Positions 51,122 through 57,397 of a stretch of DNA of 64,000 bases are shown here, piece by piece; within the stretch, counting starts at the first letter, position 1; each line of letters opens with the position of its first letter. The stretch is from the NCBI RefSeq assembly GCF_030814475.1, contig NZ_JAUSVF010000003.1, positions 558,001-622,000 of the forward strand. The letters run 5' to 3'. The position numbers and the translations under genes were made by a program. This DNA is from Pararhizobium capsulatum DSM 1112 (GTDB lineage Bacteria; Pseudomonadota; Alphaproteobacteria; Rhizobiales; Rhizobiaceae). The notes under the pieces are model-generated. The model was not told the DNA's origin. It saw only the letters and a list, made by a program, of their open reading frames with translations, and made no database searches.

Positions 51122-51553
51122 ATGGCAACGCGCCGGAAAACCGTCCATCTCCAGCTCTCGATTGTCCTGGGTGCGTTGATCGCAACGGCCCCCTGCTCGG
51201 CGAACATCACGGATTTCTCCTTCGGCTTCGCTCTGCAAACCGCGCTTGCGGGAAACGGCAACCACGGAAATGGCGGTGGCAATGGGAACGGCGGTGGCAA
51301 CGGGAATGGCGGAGAAAACGGCAACAAGAGCGGCAAGAGCGAGACACCGGGAAACTCAGATACTCGCGGGGCCAAGGACAAGAGTGTGACTACCAAAGGC
51401 AGCGCTGCATCGCTCTCGGTTCGCCATGACGATGGGATCAGCGAAGTCGTGCGGAACGGCAGATACATCATGAAGGACTCAAAAGGCCGCACCATCGTGA
51501 ACCGTCGTGCCACCTTAGGAGACGAGATTCGGCTTCGGTTCTTTCTTCACTGA
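51122..51553 (+). CDS. Secreted Gly/Asn-rich protein (143 aa)
   Basis: GGGAG six bases before the ATG. A signal-peptide-like start (VHLQLSIVLGALIATAPCSA), then a low-complexity run of GNGG units (residues ~45-70) and a basic, structured C-terminus (YIMKDSKGRTIVNRRATLGD). A periplasmic or surface protein of unknown role. The repeat of (GN)n is fragile DNA and may vary in length. Confidence 0.65.
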   Translation: MATRRKTVHLQLSIVLGALIATAPCSANITDFSFGFALQTALAGNGNHGNGGGNGNGGGNGNGGENGNKSGKSETPGNSDTRGAKDKSVTTKGSAASLSVRHDDGISEVVRNGRYIMKDSKGRTIVNRRATLGDEIRLRFFLH

Positions 51554-52136: not shown

Positions 52137-52538
52137 TTACTGGATGACCTGCACGACAGTGCGGGTCTGCGGGTCGACGATGACGCGCTGGTCGTTGACG
52201 ACGGTGTACGAATAGCGCGGATCTTCAGCGATCGGCATCAGGACGACCTCCTGCGGGACAGGCTTGCCGACGACGATCGGCTGCTTGACCACGACGGAAT
52301 TCTGGACAGGCTGCTGCTGGACATAGGTGACGATGCGTTCCGGCGGCGGGTCGATGGCGGCACCTGCGACGAGGCCGACAGCACCACCGATGGCAGCACC
52401 TACCGGACCGCCGACGATCGCACCCGTGACAGCACCGCCTGCCGCACCCGTGACCGCACTGTTGGCGTCATCGGCGAGGGCCGAGCCGCCAAGGGCGAGC
52501 GTGACAAAGGCCGATGCGAGAATCAGTTTCGTGTTCAT
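52137..52538 (-). CDS. DUF1236 / glycine-zipper envelope protein (133 aa)
   Basis: MNTKLILASAFVTLALGGSA LAD is a clean signal peptide; GGAGA ten bases upstream supports this start over the longer frame. A glycine-zipper stretch follows (VTGAIVGGPVGAAIGGAVGL) and a DUF1236-type end (PQEVVLMPI, YSYTVVNDQRVIVDPQTRTV). An EcfG-type promoter is at 52571-52595 and a palindrome at 52623, so it should be stress-regulated. Confidence 0.8.
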   Translation of the reverse strand: MNTKLILASAFVTLALGGSALADDANSAVTGAAGGAVTGAIVGGPVGAAIGGAVGLVAGAAIDPPPERIVTYVQQQPVQNSVVVKQPIVVGKPVPQEVVLMPIAEDPRYSYTVVNDQRVIVDPQTRTVVQVIQ

Positions 52539-52570: not shown

Positions 52571-52595
52571 AACGTCACGAAATCAAACCTGTTCC
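52571..52595 (-). promoter_or_regulatory. EcfG-type stress promoter of the DUF1236 gene
   Basis: Minus strand GGAAC-N16-CGTT, exact match to the consensus of the alphaproteobacterial general stress sigma factor. 33 bp upstream of the ATG. Confidence 0.75.
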
Positions 52596-52622
52596 CGGCC
52601 ACGACCTATGCCGTAACCAGGC

Positions 52623-52636
52623 AGGACTTAAGTCCT
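52623..52636. promoter_or_regulatory. GACTTAAGTC palindrome, copy 1
   Basis: AGGACTTAAGTCCT, perfect 14-bp palindrome, 28 bp upstream of the stress promoter at 52571-52595 and overlapping the last codons of the response-regulator gene. Confidence 0.7.
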
Positions 52637-53278
52637 CCAAGCCTTCGCGTTGAGCAGCGTCATGGCCGCTTCAGTTCTGTTGCTGATCCCCAGCTTTGCG
52701 AAGATGTGGGTCATGTGCTGCTTGATCGTCTTCTCGTGCACGCCAAGCCGGAGTGCTATCCGCTTGTTACTGAGGCCCTCGGCCACGAGGTTCAAGACTT
52801 CCTGCTCGCGATTCGTCAGATTGTCGATCGGATTTCCGTGCTTTGCCGTGGCTGCGTGTGATGACATGTCTGACAGCAACCGCGCCGACAACGAAGGCGA
52901 GACGTAAGTGTCGCCCGCGTCCACCGATCTGACGATGTCGGCTAGAATCCGTGACCCGACGCCTTTCAGCACATAGCCTTTTGCGCCTTTCGCCAGAGCA
53001 CTCATCACATCATCGCTCATCTCCGAGACCGTCAGCATGATAATCTTCTGGCCGGGGTTCTCCTGCAGGATGGGCACGATCGCATTCAGCCCGCCGCCGG
53101 GCATCGAGATATCCATGAGCAAGATGCCGGGCTTGAGAGTGGCGCTCAGTGCAAGCGCCTCATCAGACGTGGATCCTTCGCCGACGATTCGGAAGCCTGG
53201 GATTTCCGAGAGGATACGCATGACACCCTCACGGAAGAGCGGATGATCGTCGACAACGGCTATGGTGATCTCTTTCAT
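52628..53278 (-). CDS. NarL/FixJ-type response regulator
   Basis: 216 aa. Receiver with VVDDHPLF (acidic pair), LLMDISMPGGG (phospho-Asp), MLTVSEMSDD (Thr) and YVLKG (Lys). LuxR-type HTH: LTNREQEVLNLVAEGLSNKR, GVHEKTIKQHMTHIFAKLGI. Its start overlaps the kinase stop (ATGA), so the pair is a two-component operon. The GACTTAAGTC palindromes at 52623-56507 are candidate binding sites. Confidence 0.92.
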   Translation of the reverse strand: MKEITIAVVDDHPLFREGVMRILSEIPGFRIVGEGSTSDEALALSATLKPGILLMDISMPGGGLNAIVPILQENPGQKIIMLTVSEMSDDVMSALAKGAKGYVLKGVGSRILADIVRSVDAGDTYVSPSLSARLLSDMSSHAATAKHGNPIDNLTNREQEVLNLVAEGLSNKRIALRLGVHEKTIKQHMTHIFAKLGISNRTEAAMTLLNAKAWRT

Positions 53279-54705
53279 CAGGCTGGTTCCATTTCATTCA
53301 GGTTCAGGGACATGCGCAGCACGGTTCCCTGGTTCGATGTCTTCAGGTCAAAATGTCCGCCTAAGCTCTCAACCCGTTCGTGCAGGCCCGATAGCCCAAG
53401 GCTGGACGGTTTGATATCCGCCGGGTCGAAGCCCGGACCGCTGTCGCCGACGGTTATGGACACGTTCTGCCCGTCGAAGGTCTGGACGACATATTGTCCA
53501 ACTCCGCCGCCGTGGCGGAACCCGTTGTTGAGCGCCTCCTGCACGAAGCGGAAGACGCAGATCTTTGCCGATAACGACAGCGGCGGCGATGTTGGAGACA
53601 GCGAGAGCCTCACCGTTGTGCCCGTGCGCTGCAAATGCGCTTTTAGGGCTCGTTCGATGATCTCCCCCAGGTCGGCTCCTTCGATCTGCGGAAGGACGAG
53701 GCCACTGCAGATCGCCCGAATTTCCTGCATGGCGTCATCCAGGCTGGATCGGATGGATGTGAGTTCTCCATCCCGTACCTTCCGCGACGTGCGAGGATTG
53801 CTGATCACGTCGCTGTCGACTTTGAGAGCCGCAAGCGCAACAAGCTGTGCCGGCCCATCGTGCAGTTCCGCTCCCAGGCGTCGCAGGTATCGCTCGTTCA
53901 AGGCCGTCGTGCGTTGGCTCGCACGCTGGAGTTTCGAACTGAGTTCGCCATTCTGCGTGAGAAGGTTGGACAAGTCCTGAATGCGCTTCTTCAACGCCTC
54001 ACGCTGACTGTCGATCATCCTGCTCCCTTTAAACACGAGAGCCGAAAGAATGGCGAAGAATGTCATGGTGAACGCCACCACGGCGATCCAGCTTTGCAGC
54101 CGGGCATGGTTCAAGCTGTGCTGAAAGTCGGTGGCGATCTCGTAGAACTCAAGAACAGCGACGACATCGCCGGACCAAGGCTGAAGAACTGGATTGTAGA
54201 CTTCAAGCAGCGGTATGCCACTTTCGCGTTCGCTTTCGCTCCCAACATCGTCGACGTCGTCATACTCGGCGACCATTTTTCCGGTGAGCGCTGTCTGCAG
54301 ACCGTCGCTGATAGGCAGCTTCTGCCCGATCTGTTGCCTGTTGTTTGAGTACAGGATCGTGCCGTCGGCCCGCCAAAGCTTGAAGGACATCAATCGCTTG
54401 CCGAGCGCTCCCTGGCCCAACGTCTCGTCCAAAGCCTGTTTGACGGAGTCGCTCAGGGCCGTGCTGTTCTGCATGTCCGGCAGCAGAGGTGCGATGACGC
54501 TGTCGACGTAAAGCGCGGTCGCGGCTCCAGAGTTCCTGGTGACGGCATCTTCGATGAGGCTCGTCAAAAATGCTCCGACGATGATGGTCGCGACCAGTGA
54601 GACGAGGCCTCCAACGAGAAGAAACTGCTGAGCCAGCGAGAGCGCTTTCCAGTGATTGCCTTTGAAGACCGCGTGCATGCTTGTCAGAAACTCCCAACGC
54701 CGCAT
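53278..54705 (-). CDS. Sensor histidine kinase (HisKA_3, NarX-like)
   Basis: 475 aa (start MHAVFKGNH at 54678 also possible). TM1 ~residues 30-51, a periplasmic domain of ~150 residues (GTILYSNNRQQIGQKLP, then EVYNPVLQPWSGDVVAVLEF) like a double-Cache fold, TM2 ~205-225, coiled linker, then HisKA_3 (RRLGAELHDGPAQLVALAAL with the His) and HATPase (FRFVQEALNNGFRHGG, GDSGPGFDP, GLSGLHERVESLGG). It should phosphorylate the regulator at 52628. The ligand is unknown. Confidence 0.9.
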   Translation of the reverse strand: MRRWEFLTSMHAVFKGNHWKALSLAQQFLLVGGLVSLVATIIVGAFLTSLIEDAVTRNSGAATALYVDSVIAPLLPDMQNSTALSDSVKQALDETLGQGALGKRLMSFKLWRADGTILYSNNRQQIGQKLPISDGLQTALTGKMVAEYDDVDDVGSESERESGIPLLEVYNPVLQPWSGDVVAVLEFYEIATDFQHSLNHARLQSWIAVVAFTMTFFAILSALVFKGSRMIDSQREALKKRIQDLSNLLTQNGELSSKLQRASQRTTALNERYLRRLGAELHDGPAQLVALAALKVDSDVISNPRTSRKVRDGELTSIRSSLDDAMQEIRAICSGLVLPQIEGADLGEIIERALKAHLQRTGTTVRLSLSPTSPPLSLSAKICVFRFVQEALNNGFRHGGGVGQYVVQTFDGQNVSITVGDSGPGFDPADIKPSSLGLSGLHERVESLGGHFDLKTSNQGTVLRMSLNLNEMEPA

Positions 54706-54800
54706 TGTTTGCCAGCGAACTGTTTGTCACAACTAAGGCAGGAGGGCGTTTCGTCAACGATTGGGAGTGCGATCACTTACGAATCCAGGACCTCGTTTTT

Positions 54801-55442
54801 TCAAATGTATGGAGACACGCAGGAGCGAATTTCGCCGCTGAATGCCCGATATGTATTGTTGTCCGGGTTATAGGAGCGATAGCGCGCGAAGCACCACTGT
54901 ACATGGTTCTCTCCGGAATATTCGATCTCACCTCTGTTGGAAGCTTCCTGCACCACGTCCGCGGTCACAGTGTTCTGAACGGTAGCTGCGAACGGCGGCT
55001 CACATTGACGGCGTGCGCCGCTGTATGGCTGAAATGTGTTGTCCGAAGCGCGATAGGACCTATATCGGTCGGCGCACCACTTGGCCACGGCCGTGTTGGG
55101 CTGGAAATTTGAGGTCGGGCCGACGCTCTCCGTTTCACCTTCGATCACATCGGGGCGGGCGAACTGCCTCGAAGGTTGGATCACGCTTGCGACGATGTTG
55201 TCCACGCCGGAGTTCAGCTCCGCCGATTTCGGCGGTTCAACGACGAGAGCGGGAAGTCGGTCAAAATTCTGCTTGCTGGGATCGACCGACACGGGATGGG
55301 ATGTCCAGAGCGATGTGATGTCTGTGCTGCCCAGCTTTTTGACTTCACGCTCGGGAAGGTAATTGGGGATTGCCATGACACTCCCGGCGATCGCAGTGAG
55401 CGAGAGTGTGATGCCCACCACGGGCAGGATAGGATAGGTCAT
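54801..55442 (-). CDS. Secreted protein with two BA14K-like domains (213 aa)
   Basis: ATG at 55442 with CAGGAG seven bases upstream. Signal peptide or anchor LPVVGITLSLTAIAGSVMAI. Two BA14K-type repeats with two Cys each: WCADRYRSYRASDNTFQPYS, RRQC and WCFARYRSYNPDNNTYRAFS, RSC. BA14K is a lectin-like surface antigen family of Brucella and rhizobia, normally with one copy. An EcfG promoter (55565) and a palindrome (55639) are upstream. Confidence 0.8.
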   Translation of the reverse strand: MTYPILPVVGITLSLTAIAGSVMAIPNYLPEREVKKLGSTDITSLWTSHPVSVDPSKQNFDRLPALVVEPPKSAELNSGVDNIVASVIQPSRQFARPDVIEGETESVGPTSNFQPNTAVAKWCADRYRSYRASDNTFQPYSGARRQCEPPFAATVQNTVTADVVQEASNRGEIEYSGENHVQWCFARYRSYNPDNNTYRAFSGEIRSCVSPYI

Positions 55443-55564
55443 CGATTGGCTCCTGCGTCCGGATCGTTCCCAAGCCAATCGAGGCAAGGGAGAACGGCCA
55501 TCCTGGGAAGGCTTCAGCGTGAACTCGCCTGCCTCATTCCGATAGCGTTGTCATTGAGCCACCA

Positions 55565-55589
55565 AACGCCACTGGGGTACCGGAGTTCC
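55565..55589 (-). promoter_or_regulatory. EcfG-type stress promoter of the BA14K gene
   Basis: Minus strand GGAAC-N16-CGTT, exact consensus; 123 bp upstream of the ATG at 55442. Confidence 0.7.
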
Positions 55590-55638
55590 GGCTCACAACG
55601 TCGATACTGAGCCCGTTAGTCCTTTGCTGTTGGAAAGC

Positions 55639-55652
55639 AGGACTTAAGTCCT
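55639..55652. promoter_or_regulatory. GACTTAAGTC palindrome, copy 2
   Basis: AGGACTTAAGTCCT, perfect 14-bp palindrome, 50 bp upstream of the promoter at 55565-55589. Confidence 0.7.
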
Positions 55653-55660
55653 GAATGGCA

Positions 55661-55939
55661 TCATGTCTGAGAGCGCGCAATCATTGCTTTAGTCTTCGCG
55701 ATCGAGGTCGCCCGCCACTTGGCGACCTGCGCGCCCGGTGGTCCAGCACGTCCTGCACGAGGTCGGCTGGGCCTTGCCGCAAGCGATGCGGTGTCGCCCT
55801 CGGTGCTTGGAATGCGTTGGCTAGGTCCCTGCCTTCTTTTTCTTGGTGCCACCAGAAGTCTTGTCAAAGTAAAGATTGAAAGGTTGCTCGGAGCGTATTT
55901 CAAAATATGGACCAAGCGCCCGATCTCACTGTCAGACAT
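55661..55939 (-). CDS. Basic hypothetical protein (92 aa)
   Basis: MSDSEIGRLVHILKYAPSNL, SIFTLTRLLVAPRKRRQGPS, then Arg/Ala/Pro-rich. ATG overlaps the end of 55932. No domain; a shadow of a real gene cannot be ruled out, but the first 40 residues look protein-like. Confidence 0.4.
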   Translation of the reverse strand: MSDSEIGRLVHILKYAPSNLSIFTLTRLLVAPRKRRQGPSQRIPSTEGDTASLAARPSRPRAGRAGPPGAQVAKWRATSIAKTKAMIARSQT

Positions 55940-56207
55940 CCGTCCGATCGAAAAAATACGCACTCTCGTCGGAAACAACCTCGAAGGTTGCTGGCGACTG
56001 CGAGCTCGTTGAAGAAAGCTTCTTTTTGCCCAGGCGGGTATTGCGAATGATTTGATAGCGCCTACGCATTTCGGGCACGTCGATTTCGCCGTCGATCCAA
56101 AGCGCGGCAAGCATCATAAAATCTGCGTCTCTGGCAATCGCACGACCTGCGGCAGCTTCTCGTTCAATTAAGCGACCGACAAGTGCACGGCGATTTTCGA
56201 CAGTCAT
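55932..56207 (-). CDS. Hypothetical protein (91 aa)
   Basis: ATG at 56207 with AGGAAA upstream. MTVENRRALVGRLIEREAAA, LAALWIDGEIDVPEMRRRYQ, then Ser/Thr-rich. All-helical first half. A palindrome (56341) lies 134 bp upstream but no stress promoter is seen. Confidence 0.55.
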   Translation of the reverse strand: MTVENRRALVGRLIEREAAAGRAIARDADFMMLAALWIDGEIDVPEMRRRYQIIRNTRLGKKKLSSTSSQSPATFEVVSDESAYFFDRTDV

Positions 56208-56340
56208 TATATTTTCCTAGGAATGGGGTTTGGGAAAAAAGACAGTGGCAGTTTCGGATTCGGCCGTTGGCTCGAGCGAGCCACTCCATCGCTGCACGCC
56301 TGACAGTTGCAACCCCAACTAGACCAATGCTGTTTCAAAC

Positions 56341-56354
56341 AGGACTTAAGTCAC
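56341..56354. promoter_or_regulatory. GACTTAAGTC palindrome, copy 3
   Basis: AGGACTTAAGTCAC; the inner 10 bp GACTTAAGTC are a perfect palindrome. Confidence 0.6.
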
Positions 56355-56493
56355 ATCCCGCATATCTCAGCGCATGCTAGCGGCTGCCGAAAAGCGTTTC
56401 TGAAATGCTCAAGCGGATATACGATGTGAAGAGAGCGTGGGGTTCGGCGTCTCATGTTGAAACTGCATTCGATTAGGCCAATCGCACTAAAGT

Positions 56494-56507
56494 AGGACTT
56501 AAGTCTG
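56494..56507. promoter_or_regulatory. GACTTAAGTC palindrome, copy 4
   Basis: AGGACTTAAGTCTG; 49 bp upstream of the promoter at 56557. Same inner palindrome. Confidence 0.65.
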
Positions 56508-56556
56508 CGACAGATCAGGCATAGGTCTAGTGCGCTACTGGCGTGCGCAGCCTGTC

Positions 56557-56581
56557 GGAACCATTTGATTCCACGTGTGTT
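56557..56581 (+). promoter_or_regulatory. EcfG-type stress promoter of the 56625 gene
   Basis: GGAAC-N16-TGTT, one base from consensus. 43 bp upstream of the ATG. Confidence 0.65.
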
Positions 56582-56619: not shown

Positions 56620-57397
56620 ACCCAATGAAGAAACTTCTCATCGCCACGGCGGCCATCGCCTTTTCCGCAACCTCGGTATTCGCCCAGGCAACAAAGCCTG
56701 CTGCTAACCCTGACGGCGACACTCCGGCCGTCGCCACACCCTCGGATCAGAACACGTCCGCACCCGTCGAAGGTGCGAACAGCTTCACCGAAGGCCAAGC
56801 CAAGGACCGCATCGTCGAAGCTGGTTATGCAGATGTCACGGAGCTGAAGCTCGATGACAAGGGCGTCTGGCAGGGCAAGGCGACCAAGGACGGTAAGGCC
56901 GTAATGGTATCGTTGGACTACCAGGGAAACATCGTCGCCAAGTAAATGCAGGCAAGAACAACAACGAGGAGAAACCCCATGACGAAAACAGTGACAGGCC
57001 TTTTTGACACGTATTCAGATGCAAGCTCGGCCGTCGAGCAGCTCAAGGCGGCAGGCATTTCAGACAGCGACATCAGCATCGTCTCCAATAATTCGGACGG
57101 ACGCTACAACGACGATGACGATGACGCCGCCGAAGGTGCGGGCACAGGCGCTGGCATCGGTGCTGCCGTGGGCGGCGTCGGCGGTCTGCTGACGGGTCTT
57201 GGCATTATGGCTATCCCAGGTGTCGGCCCGGTTGTTGCCGCAGGCTGGCTGGCGGCCACGGCTGCCGGCGCAGTCGCTGGTGCTGTCGTCGGTGGTGCCG
57301 CGGGAGGTATCGTCGGTGCCCTAACGGATTCGGGCGTCGACGAGCGCGATGCCCATGTTTATGCCGAAGGCGTTCGCCGCGGGGGTACCCTGGTGAC
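56620..57397. repeat. Direct repeat, copy 1 (partner 63223-64000)
   Basis: Two genes and the spacer between them are nearly identical to 63223-64000 (constant offset 6603 bp, only scattered substitutions). The repeat begins at the ribosome site of the first gene; the upstream regions differ. Copy 2 runs off the window, so the real length is at least 778 bp. Confidence 0.9.
56625..56945 (+). CDS. Secreted PepSY-like stress protein (106 aa)
   Basis: Signal peptide MKKLLIATAAIAFSATSVFA with GGAGA upstream. The mature part is acidic, with AKDRIVEAGYADVTELKLDD and GVWQGKATKDGKAVMVSLDY, which looks like a PepSY-type domain (alpha-beta, G-W-A strand). Likely periplasmic, stress-induced. First gene of a pair; nearly identical to 63228-63548. 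Confidence 0.75.
   Translation: MKKLLIATAAIAFSATSVFAQATKPAANPDGDTPAVATPSDQNTSAPVEGANSFTEGQAKDRIVEAGYADVTELKLDDKGVWQGKATKDGKAVMVSLDYQGNIVAK

Follow-up and report, generated by a model that had tools for sequence, protein, structure and literature searches.

In a 64,000-nucleotide stretch of Pararhizobium capsulatum DSM 1112 (the window, C3:558001-622000 of a genome of 6,477,857 bases), a NarL-family response regulator and its adjacent histidine kinase are encoded among four copies of a short palindrome, three of which stand upstream of promoters of the EcfG general stress type. We consider it likely that this two-component system is an activator of envelope genes with EcfG promoters, and that it acts from helically phased, tandem boxes resembling that of DosR. 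The sites, their spacing, their conservation, their co-occurrence with the kinase, and the DosR-type box and recognition helix were all computed from sequence. An earlier note on this DNA had linked the regulator, the palindrome, and EcfG promoters, and the computations support that link: the half-site of the palindrome ranks first of 1024 both near the closer relatives of the kinase and upstream of EcfG-type promoters; the distance d from box to promoter (the position of the first GGAAC base less that of the final base in the 12-bp palindrome) follows an 11-bp series in several genera; all 14 genomes with a composite of box and promoter at d 1-31 carry the kinase; and the box is of the DosR type, with a DosR-like recognition helix in the regulator.

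Accounts of the general stress response in alphaproteobacteria usually depict a single partner switch, from which a single sigma factor is released. The genome holds two NepR and two PhyR genes, and the extracytoplasmic function (ECF) sigma factor encoded beside one NepR/PhyR pair appears EcfG-like from its gene position and Pfam profile. EcfG1 promoters of R. etli read GGAAC-N16-CGTT (PMC3892343), and the EcfG-type consensus is given as GAAC-N16,17-C/GGTT (PMC4814048). In the window, promoter 1 (52571..52595, minus strand) and promoter 2 (55565..55589, minus strand), both GGAAC-N16-CGTT, match GGAAC-N16/17-CGTT, and promoter 3 (56557..56581, plus strand) is GGAAC-N16-TGTT.

The palindrome is concentrated around the two-component genes. 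GACTTAAGTC occurs at 52625, 55641, 56343, and 56496, four copies within 4 kb that are the only ones in the window; shuffling predicts 0.01 copies for the window, and none of 100 shuffles reached four. Perfect copies of the 14-mer AGGACTTAAGTCCT lie at 52623-52636 and 55639-55652, and the 14-mers starting at 56341 and 56494 each carry two mismatches to it with the inner GACTTAAGTC kept. These counts confirm the earlier description of two perfect copies, two copies of the inner 10 bp, and no other in 64 kb. The whole genome has five copies of GACTTAAGTC, the fifth within a long open reading frame (ORF) on C1, and three of the reversed pattern. With up to one mismatch, GGACTWWAGTCC is found at 16 genomic places, four of them in the window, against 60 for the reversed pattern; hence the motif is not common genome-wide. 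It is very improbable that the palindromes arose by chance or are mobile repeats, RNA hairpins, or terminators rather than operators. Copy 1 is indeed transcribed, within the 3' end of the regulator gene, but so few copies are expected in the window, three of the four lie upstream of promoters, and in relatives the flanks differ while box and spacing persist.

Box 1 (GGACTTAAGTCC, 52624..52635), box 2 (GGACTTAAGTCC, 55640..55651), and box 3 (GGACTTAAGTCT, 56495..56506), none assigned to a strand, stand at d = 29, 51, and 51 from promoters 1, 2, and 3, respectively. The intervening 28, 50, and 50 bases agree with the gaps of 28-50 bp claimed earlier for three copies. Each window promoter also carries an accessory box at +22 from its strong box: box 1b (CGGCATAGGTCG, 52602..52613, minus strand) at the d=7 position, box 2b (CAGCAAAGGACT, 55618..55629, minus strand) at the d=29 position, and box 3b (AGGCATAGGTCT, 56517..56528, plus strand). 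Box 1 overlaps the stop codon of the response regulator gene. An RNA hairpin at copy 1 was tried and rejected, its stability being no better than that of shuffles (z -0.61).

To relate the motif to the two-component system beyond the window, half-sites were ranked in the best 80 of 254 loci with relatives of the kinase, chosen by kinase homology alone. Because the G+C-rich composition overwhelmed unadjusted counts of palindromes near kinases, the ranking was normalised by order-2 Markov resampling (six resamples). In 19 loci other than the window, with a kinase 50-89% identical, GGACT-NN-AGTCC (up to one mismatch allowed) ranked first of 1024 half-sites, with 29 observed against 3.2 expected; 13 more distant loci were ranked separately, and the other 48 of the 80 fell outside both tests. 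The same half-site again came first of 1024 in the sequence upstream of EcfG-type promoters, of which the 80 loci yielded 89 non-redundant ones; there, nine pairs of box and promoter (d = 7, 29, 29, 29, 39, 40, 40, 51, and 51) compare with a mean of 0.24.

The association with the kinase also holds across the family. A kinase relative (E <=1e-80) is present in 75 of 297 family genomes, and the strict pattern GGACTNNAGNCC-N{1,31}-GGAAC-N16/17-YGTT gave 15 matches in 14 of the 297, from eight genera, against five for the reversed pattern. All 14 carry the kinase, at an identity of at least 52% in 13 and of 38% in one (G106), as does one of the five genomes with the control pattern (G178). The earlier note had named frequent, randomly placed occurrence of the motif in related genomes without this regulator as a finding that would speak against the link. 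When this was examined for the composite rather than the bare motif, the 222 family genomes without the kinase yielded none at d 1-31 and two at d 32-62, both off phase (d 57 and 58) and with one-mismatch palindromes. Outside the family, the composite was found in one of 376 genomes of the same order (G581, d=25), which we treat as background. These data bear on the possibility that some NarL-family protein other than the adjacent regulator, encoded elsewhere, binds the palindromes. Regulators of the NarL type are numerous and have related half-sites, the kinase of the site-bearing genome G106 is only 38% identical, and in eight of 13 site loci the 11-16 kb examined contain no relative of the regulator. 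We nevertheless regard it as improbable, as all 14 genomes with a site at d 1-31 carry this kinase, a regulator 50-82% identical lies in the same stretch at the remaining five of the 13 site loci (L121-L133), and the motif is enriched around the kinase-regulator pair itself.

The distances from box to promoter are clustered. Strict matches fall at d of 6-8 (eight), 18 (two), 28-29 (four), and 26 (one), so that 14 of 15 are no more than 1 bp away from 7, 18, or 29. A relaxed pattern, applied to 56 genomes with a kinase of at least 49% identity (a set that left out G088, at 49%), gave 22 matches in 20 genomes, 18 of them within 1 bp of the same three positions, including one at d=30 with a two-mismatch palindrome. 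By a Rayleigh test for an 11-bp period, 30 non-redundant pairs at d <=60 are phased with R 0.67 (p ~1e-6), six pairs at 62, 73, 83, 84, 85, and 85 being left out by that limit, and the 15 perfect palindromes with R 0.86 (p ~1.5e-5). The searches did not select for phase, and some loci entered via distance-bounded patterns.

The boxes are tandem as well as phased. With the strong box masked, motif matches in 26 non-redundant promoters, chosen for a strong box on the 11-bp series, peak at d=7 (z 4.7) and d=29 (z 3.7). A z of -4.2 at d=34 indicates that the normal approximation is rough, and the weight is therefore placed on the two top peaks falling at exactly 7 and 29 and not on p values. The peaks imply that strong and weak boxes lie 22 bp apart, in the same helical register. 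Strong and weak boxes may also swap places, to judge from L128, where the strong box is at 29 and the box at 7 is imperfect, and L009, with boxes at 51 and 7.

Alignment of the promoter regions shows what has been retained. At the DUF1236 promoter (promoter 1), box 1 aligns with seven relatives, GGAAC and CGTT are kept in all eight sequences, L009-L011 have boxes at 51 plus 7 instead of 29, and accessory box 1b is similar in the close relatives L006-L008. The BA14K promoter (promoter 2, also identified by its consensus match) and box 2 align in the window, L007, L008, and L180, the L008 box having two mismatches; a fifth sequence, L060, does not align there. At the PepSY promoter (promoter 3), all four aligned sequences keep GAC.T..GTCT of box 3, GGTCTA of box 3b, GGAAC, and GTGTTC in a diverged background.

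Several observations weigh against activation of EcfG promoters by this system or limit the evidence for it. In the 13 distant loci (kinase 43-47% identical), the GGACT half-site ranked fourth of 1024, with 8 observed against 0.8 expected. Co-occurrence of composite and kinase has a hypergeometric p of 1.6e-9 by genomes and 1.0e-4 by genera (8/8 versus 37/109), values that ignore shared ancestry above the genus and, for the genome value, phylogeny altogether. The family scan with N{32,62} gave four matches against five controls, and thus no excess; two of the four are the d=51 site of the window and a d=51 site in a congener. Four of the 22 relaxed matches are off phase (d 15, 15, 24, and 26), with nine matches for the reversed pattern, and the composite was not found at relaxed stringency in 36 of the 56 kinase-bearing genomes. 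The two strict patterns together recover two of the three window pairs, so their sensitivity is limited. EcfG-type promoters were assigned by consensus only. Box 4 (GGACTTAAGTCA, 56342..56353, no strand assigned), which faces left and has an accessory element at 56320-56331, showed no EcfG-type promoter within 200 bp. S. meliloti 1021, which keeps the kinase-regulator pair on pSymB, has no composite of box and promoter within 8 kb of it, and the 17 kb searched there (L178) contain one-mismatch boxes only and no EcfG-type promoter. One of the S. meliloti boxes, GGACTTAGGTCC at L178:7813, lies just upstream of the kinase; together with the lack of an EcfG-type promoter in those 17 kb, it suggests that the same regulator may work there with another sigma factor.

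The box and the regulator were each compared with those of DosR. The DosR box consensus is TTSGGGACTWWAGTCCCSAA (PMC2275270), and the core GGACTTAAGTCC of boxes 1 and 2 is identical to the consensus core, with A/T instead of G/C at the next base outwards. The regulator (52628..53278, minus strand) has Response_reg and GerE (helix-turn-helix) domains, both above the Pfam cut-off, and the recognition helix HEKTIKQH. DosR contacts the core bases through K179, K182, and N183 (PMC5999986). At these positions the regulator has EKTIKQ, that is K/K/Q, such that both lysines are kept and N183 is replaced. A retrieval pattern that itself required T[VI]K recovered the helix in 28 of 32 related loci; all have EK before T[IV]K, followed by Q in seven and H in 21, and only EK and Q/H count as findings. 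The N183 position is thus Q in the window clade and otherwise H. In a phmmer search of the PDB, NarL scored 137 bits and DevR 114 bits, DevR (3c3w) being the second match at 6.3e-32. As NarL scores higher, we call the site and its reading DosR-like and do not call the protein a DosR orthologue. DosR/DevR of Mycobacterium and OsdR of Streptomyces share with the present system a NarL-family response regulator and the palindromic box core GGACTWWAGTCC.

By analogy, the nearest known geometry to the phased boxes is that of DevR, whose boxes are close-packed and cooperative, overlap the -35 element, and serve for activation (PMC3029386). Boxes cluster near the -35 element in both cases, whereas DevR boxes overlap it and the d=7 box here ends six bases before GGAAC. 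The systems differ further in their inputs and outputs. The cognate kinases of DosR/DevR, DosS and DosT, have cytosolic GAF (heme) sensors, and their regulon is hypoxia-responsive and rich in universal stress proteins. In place of DosS/DosT-type sensor domains, the kinase described here has a PDC/Cache-like sensor, and the predicted local targets are DUF1236, BA14K, and PepSY-like envelope genes on ECF-type promoters.

In the mechanism that we propose, the extracytoplasmic PDC/Cache-type domain of the membrane kinase would sense a signal and the kinase would phosphorylate the adjacent regulator (52628-53278), which would bind GGACT-TA-AGTCC palindromes. The regulator would occupy tandem boxes spaced by 22 bp, or two helical turns, on the side of the helix where the promoter also lies; counting the first G of GGAAC as -35, these boxes are centred near -47, -69, and -91. 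The bound regulator would activate transcription by RNA polymerase carrying EcfG, directed at small secreted DUF1236, BA14K, and PepSY-like proteins and probably at the system itself, by way of the run of BA14K, kinase, and regulator genes. Binding, phosphorylation, activation rather than repression, autoregulation, and the signal are what we infer from the computed features. The regulator could instead bind the boxes and repress, or merely tune, EcfG promoters, for instance by silencing envelope genes until the kinase changes state, and the sign of regulation is not visible in sequence. This alternative is unlikely, if somewhat less so than binding by a regulator encoded elsewhere, because no window box overlaps a core promoter and the boxes lie upstream at helically phased positions. 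Upstream, helically phased sites are the usual geometry of activators. DevR, moreover, activates from close-packed boxes that reach -35 (PMC3029386).

With activator boxes upstream of EcfG promoters, each target would read both the PhyR-NepR-EcfG switch and one envelope signal. The target promoters match the consensus of that pathway, promoter 3 with TGTT, and genes for PhyR, NepR, and an EcfG-like factor are present in the genome; what differs is that a further, DNA-binding regulator from a two-component system is proposed to act at a point downstream of the partner switch, on the promoter itself. An ECF promoter that also needs response regulators is that of algD in P. aeruginosa, where the sigma factor is AlgU and the regulators are AlgR and AlgB. 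The combination of ECF promoter and response regulator is common to both, but the regulator family and site differ, and here the sigma factor would be that of the general stress response and the sites are helically phased in several genera. In S. meliloti, two response regulator-kinase pairs, SMa0113/114 and exsFG, are under RpoE2 control (PMC3616915), which is the reverse of the direction proposed here. Among the literature matches listed, none deals with an activator phased on EcfG promoters or with this two-component system, which does not establish absence from print, and no paper matched guessed locus tags of the S. meliloti pair.

More broadly, Rhizobiaceae may have two-key general stress promoters that depend on EcfG together with an obligatory, phased, tandem activator from a dedicated envelope two-component system acting at a site that matches the mycobacterial (DosR) dormancy box, a generalization for and against which we judge the case evenly balanced. 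If true, the general stress response could be controlled at the DNA for individual genes and not only at PhyR, and certain envelope genes may require two simultaneous stress signals. A phased activator on EcfG promoters would explain how an envelope signal can be made a condition for expression of part of the regulon, and it would provide an example, easy to test, of an ECF promoter that depends on a response regulator. The analysis also gives the kinase-regulator system a predicted binding site and a list of predicted targets, and it places the DUF1236 and BA14K families, which have been little characterised, in a context.

On the minus strand, the gene order is double BA14K (54801..55442), HisKA_3 kinase (53278..54705), NarL-family regulator, and DUF1236 (52137..52532), with the regulator and kinase genes overlapping by one base and promoter 1 and box 1 lying between the regulator and the DUF1236 gene. 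Predicted targets are the DUF1236/glycine-zipper secreted protein downstream of promoter 1, the double BA14K secreted protein behind promoter 2, and, for promoter 3, a small secreted PepSY-like protein (56625..56945, plus strand) followed by a YflT-domain gene at 56979. That the promoters lead into envelope genes, as had been claimed, is borne out by Pfam for DUF1236 and double BA14K, while the PepSY_2 match is below threshold (22.9 bits versus a cut-off of 24.3). As the BA14K gene lies on the same strand just upstream of the kinase gene, promoter 2 may also read through BA14K and feed the kinase-regulator pair. Looser searches of the whole genome for half-site and promoter returned the three window sites and one match on C1 (reversed patterns, six), so that the predicted direct regulon is local at that stringency.

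The Pfam scan of targets covered window genes, and the targets in other genomes were read by eye. First ORFs behind phased sites elsewhere are mostly short, with hydrophobic N-termini, and many are DUF1236-like; in L127, two divergent target genes of DUF1236-like type each have their own d=8 box. No convincing secreted product was seen by eye behind the sites of L121, L124, L172, and L177 or the plus-strand site of L122. The p4 replicon of Pararhizobium qamdonense has annotated BA14K, regulator, and DUF1236 genes and an unannotated kinase match in the same order as the window, and p3 has kinase, regulator, and DUF1236 annotated. Within 17 kb of p4 (L180), two regulator-DUF1236 units stand in tandem with phased boxes (d=29; d=51 plus 7). 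The kinase is annotated in the second unit; in the first, the unannotated kinase match aligned in five pieces, and the gene may thus be broken.

The kinase combines HisKA_3 and HATPase domains with an extracytoplasmic sensor domain. A Pfam scan with E up to 10 returned both domains, and GAF was not among the matches at that threshold; the HDGPAQ motif is invariant in 36 sequences. As a fold search with the full-length protein gave mostly kinase-domain matches, the sensor was folded alone. It modelled at a predicted local distance difference test score (pLDDT) of 86.8 as a single PDC/Cache-like fold between two long (transmembrane) helices, with resemblance to the extracytoplasmic domains of WalK and CitA. 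Genes for the kinase occur on 159 plasmid records, S. meliloti pSymB among them.

Several further features were seen. Box 4 was not detected in L006 or L060, the two relatives alignable over it, and would read towards a 91-aa ORF (55932-56207) that has relatives in 2 of 97 loci only. On the chromosome (C1), near-copies GGACTTAAGTAC and GGTCTTAAGTCC lie 174 bp apart at 1079282 and 1079456 (L134:7983 and 8157), one just inside the start of an ORF for a 1163-aa transporter-like sensor kinase and the second between that ORF and a divergent one; the 120 bp around them showed no EcfG-type promoter. The d=18 boxes at L131:7946 and L133:8005 (G138 and G045) precede a 60-61-aa, one-helix membrane peptide that is alike in both. 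A glycine-rich secreted protein in the window (51122-51553), which matched no Pfam family in the Pfam scan, has relatives such as L178:10023-10484 with a conserved tail, RHDDGISEV..RYIMKDSKGRTIVNRRAT; proteins with this tail lie near the regulator in many relatives, often convergently, with tblastn matches in 28 of 97 loci.

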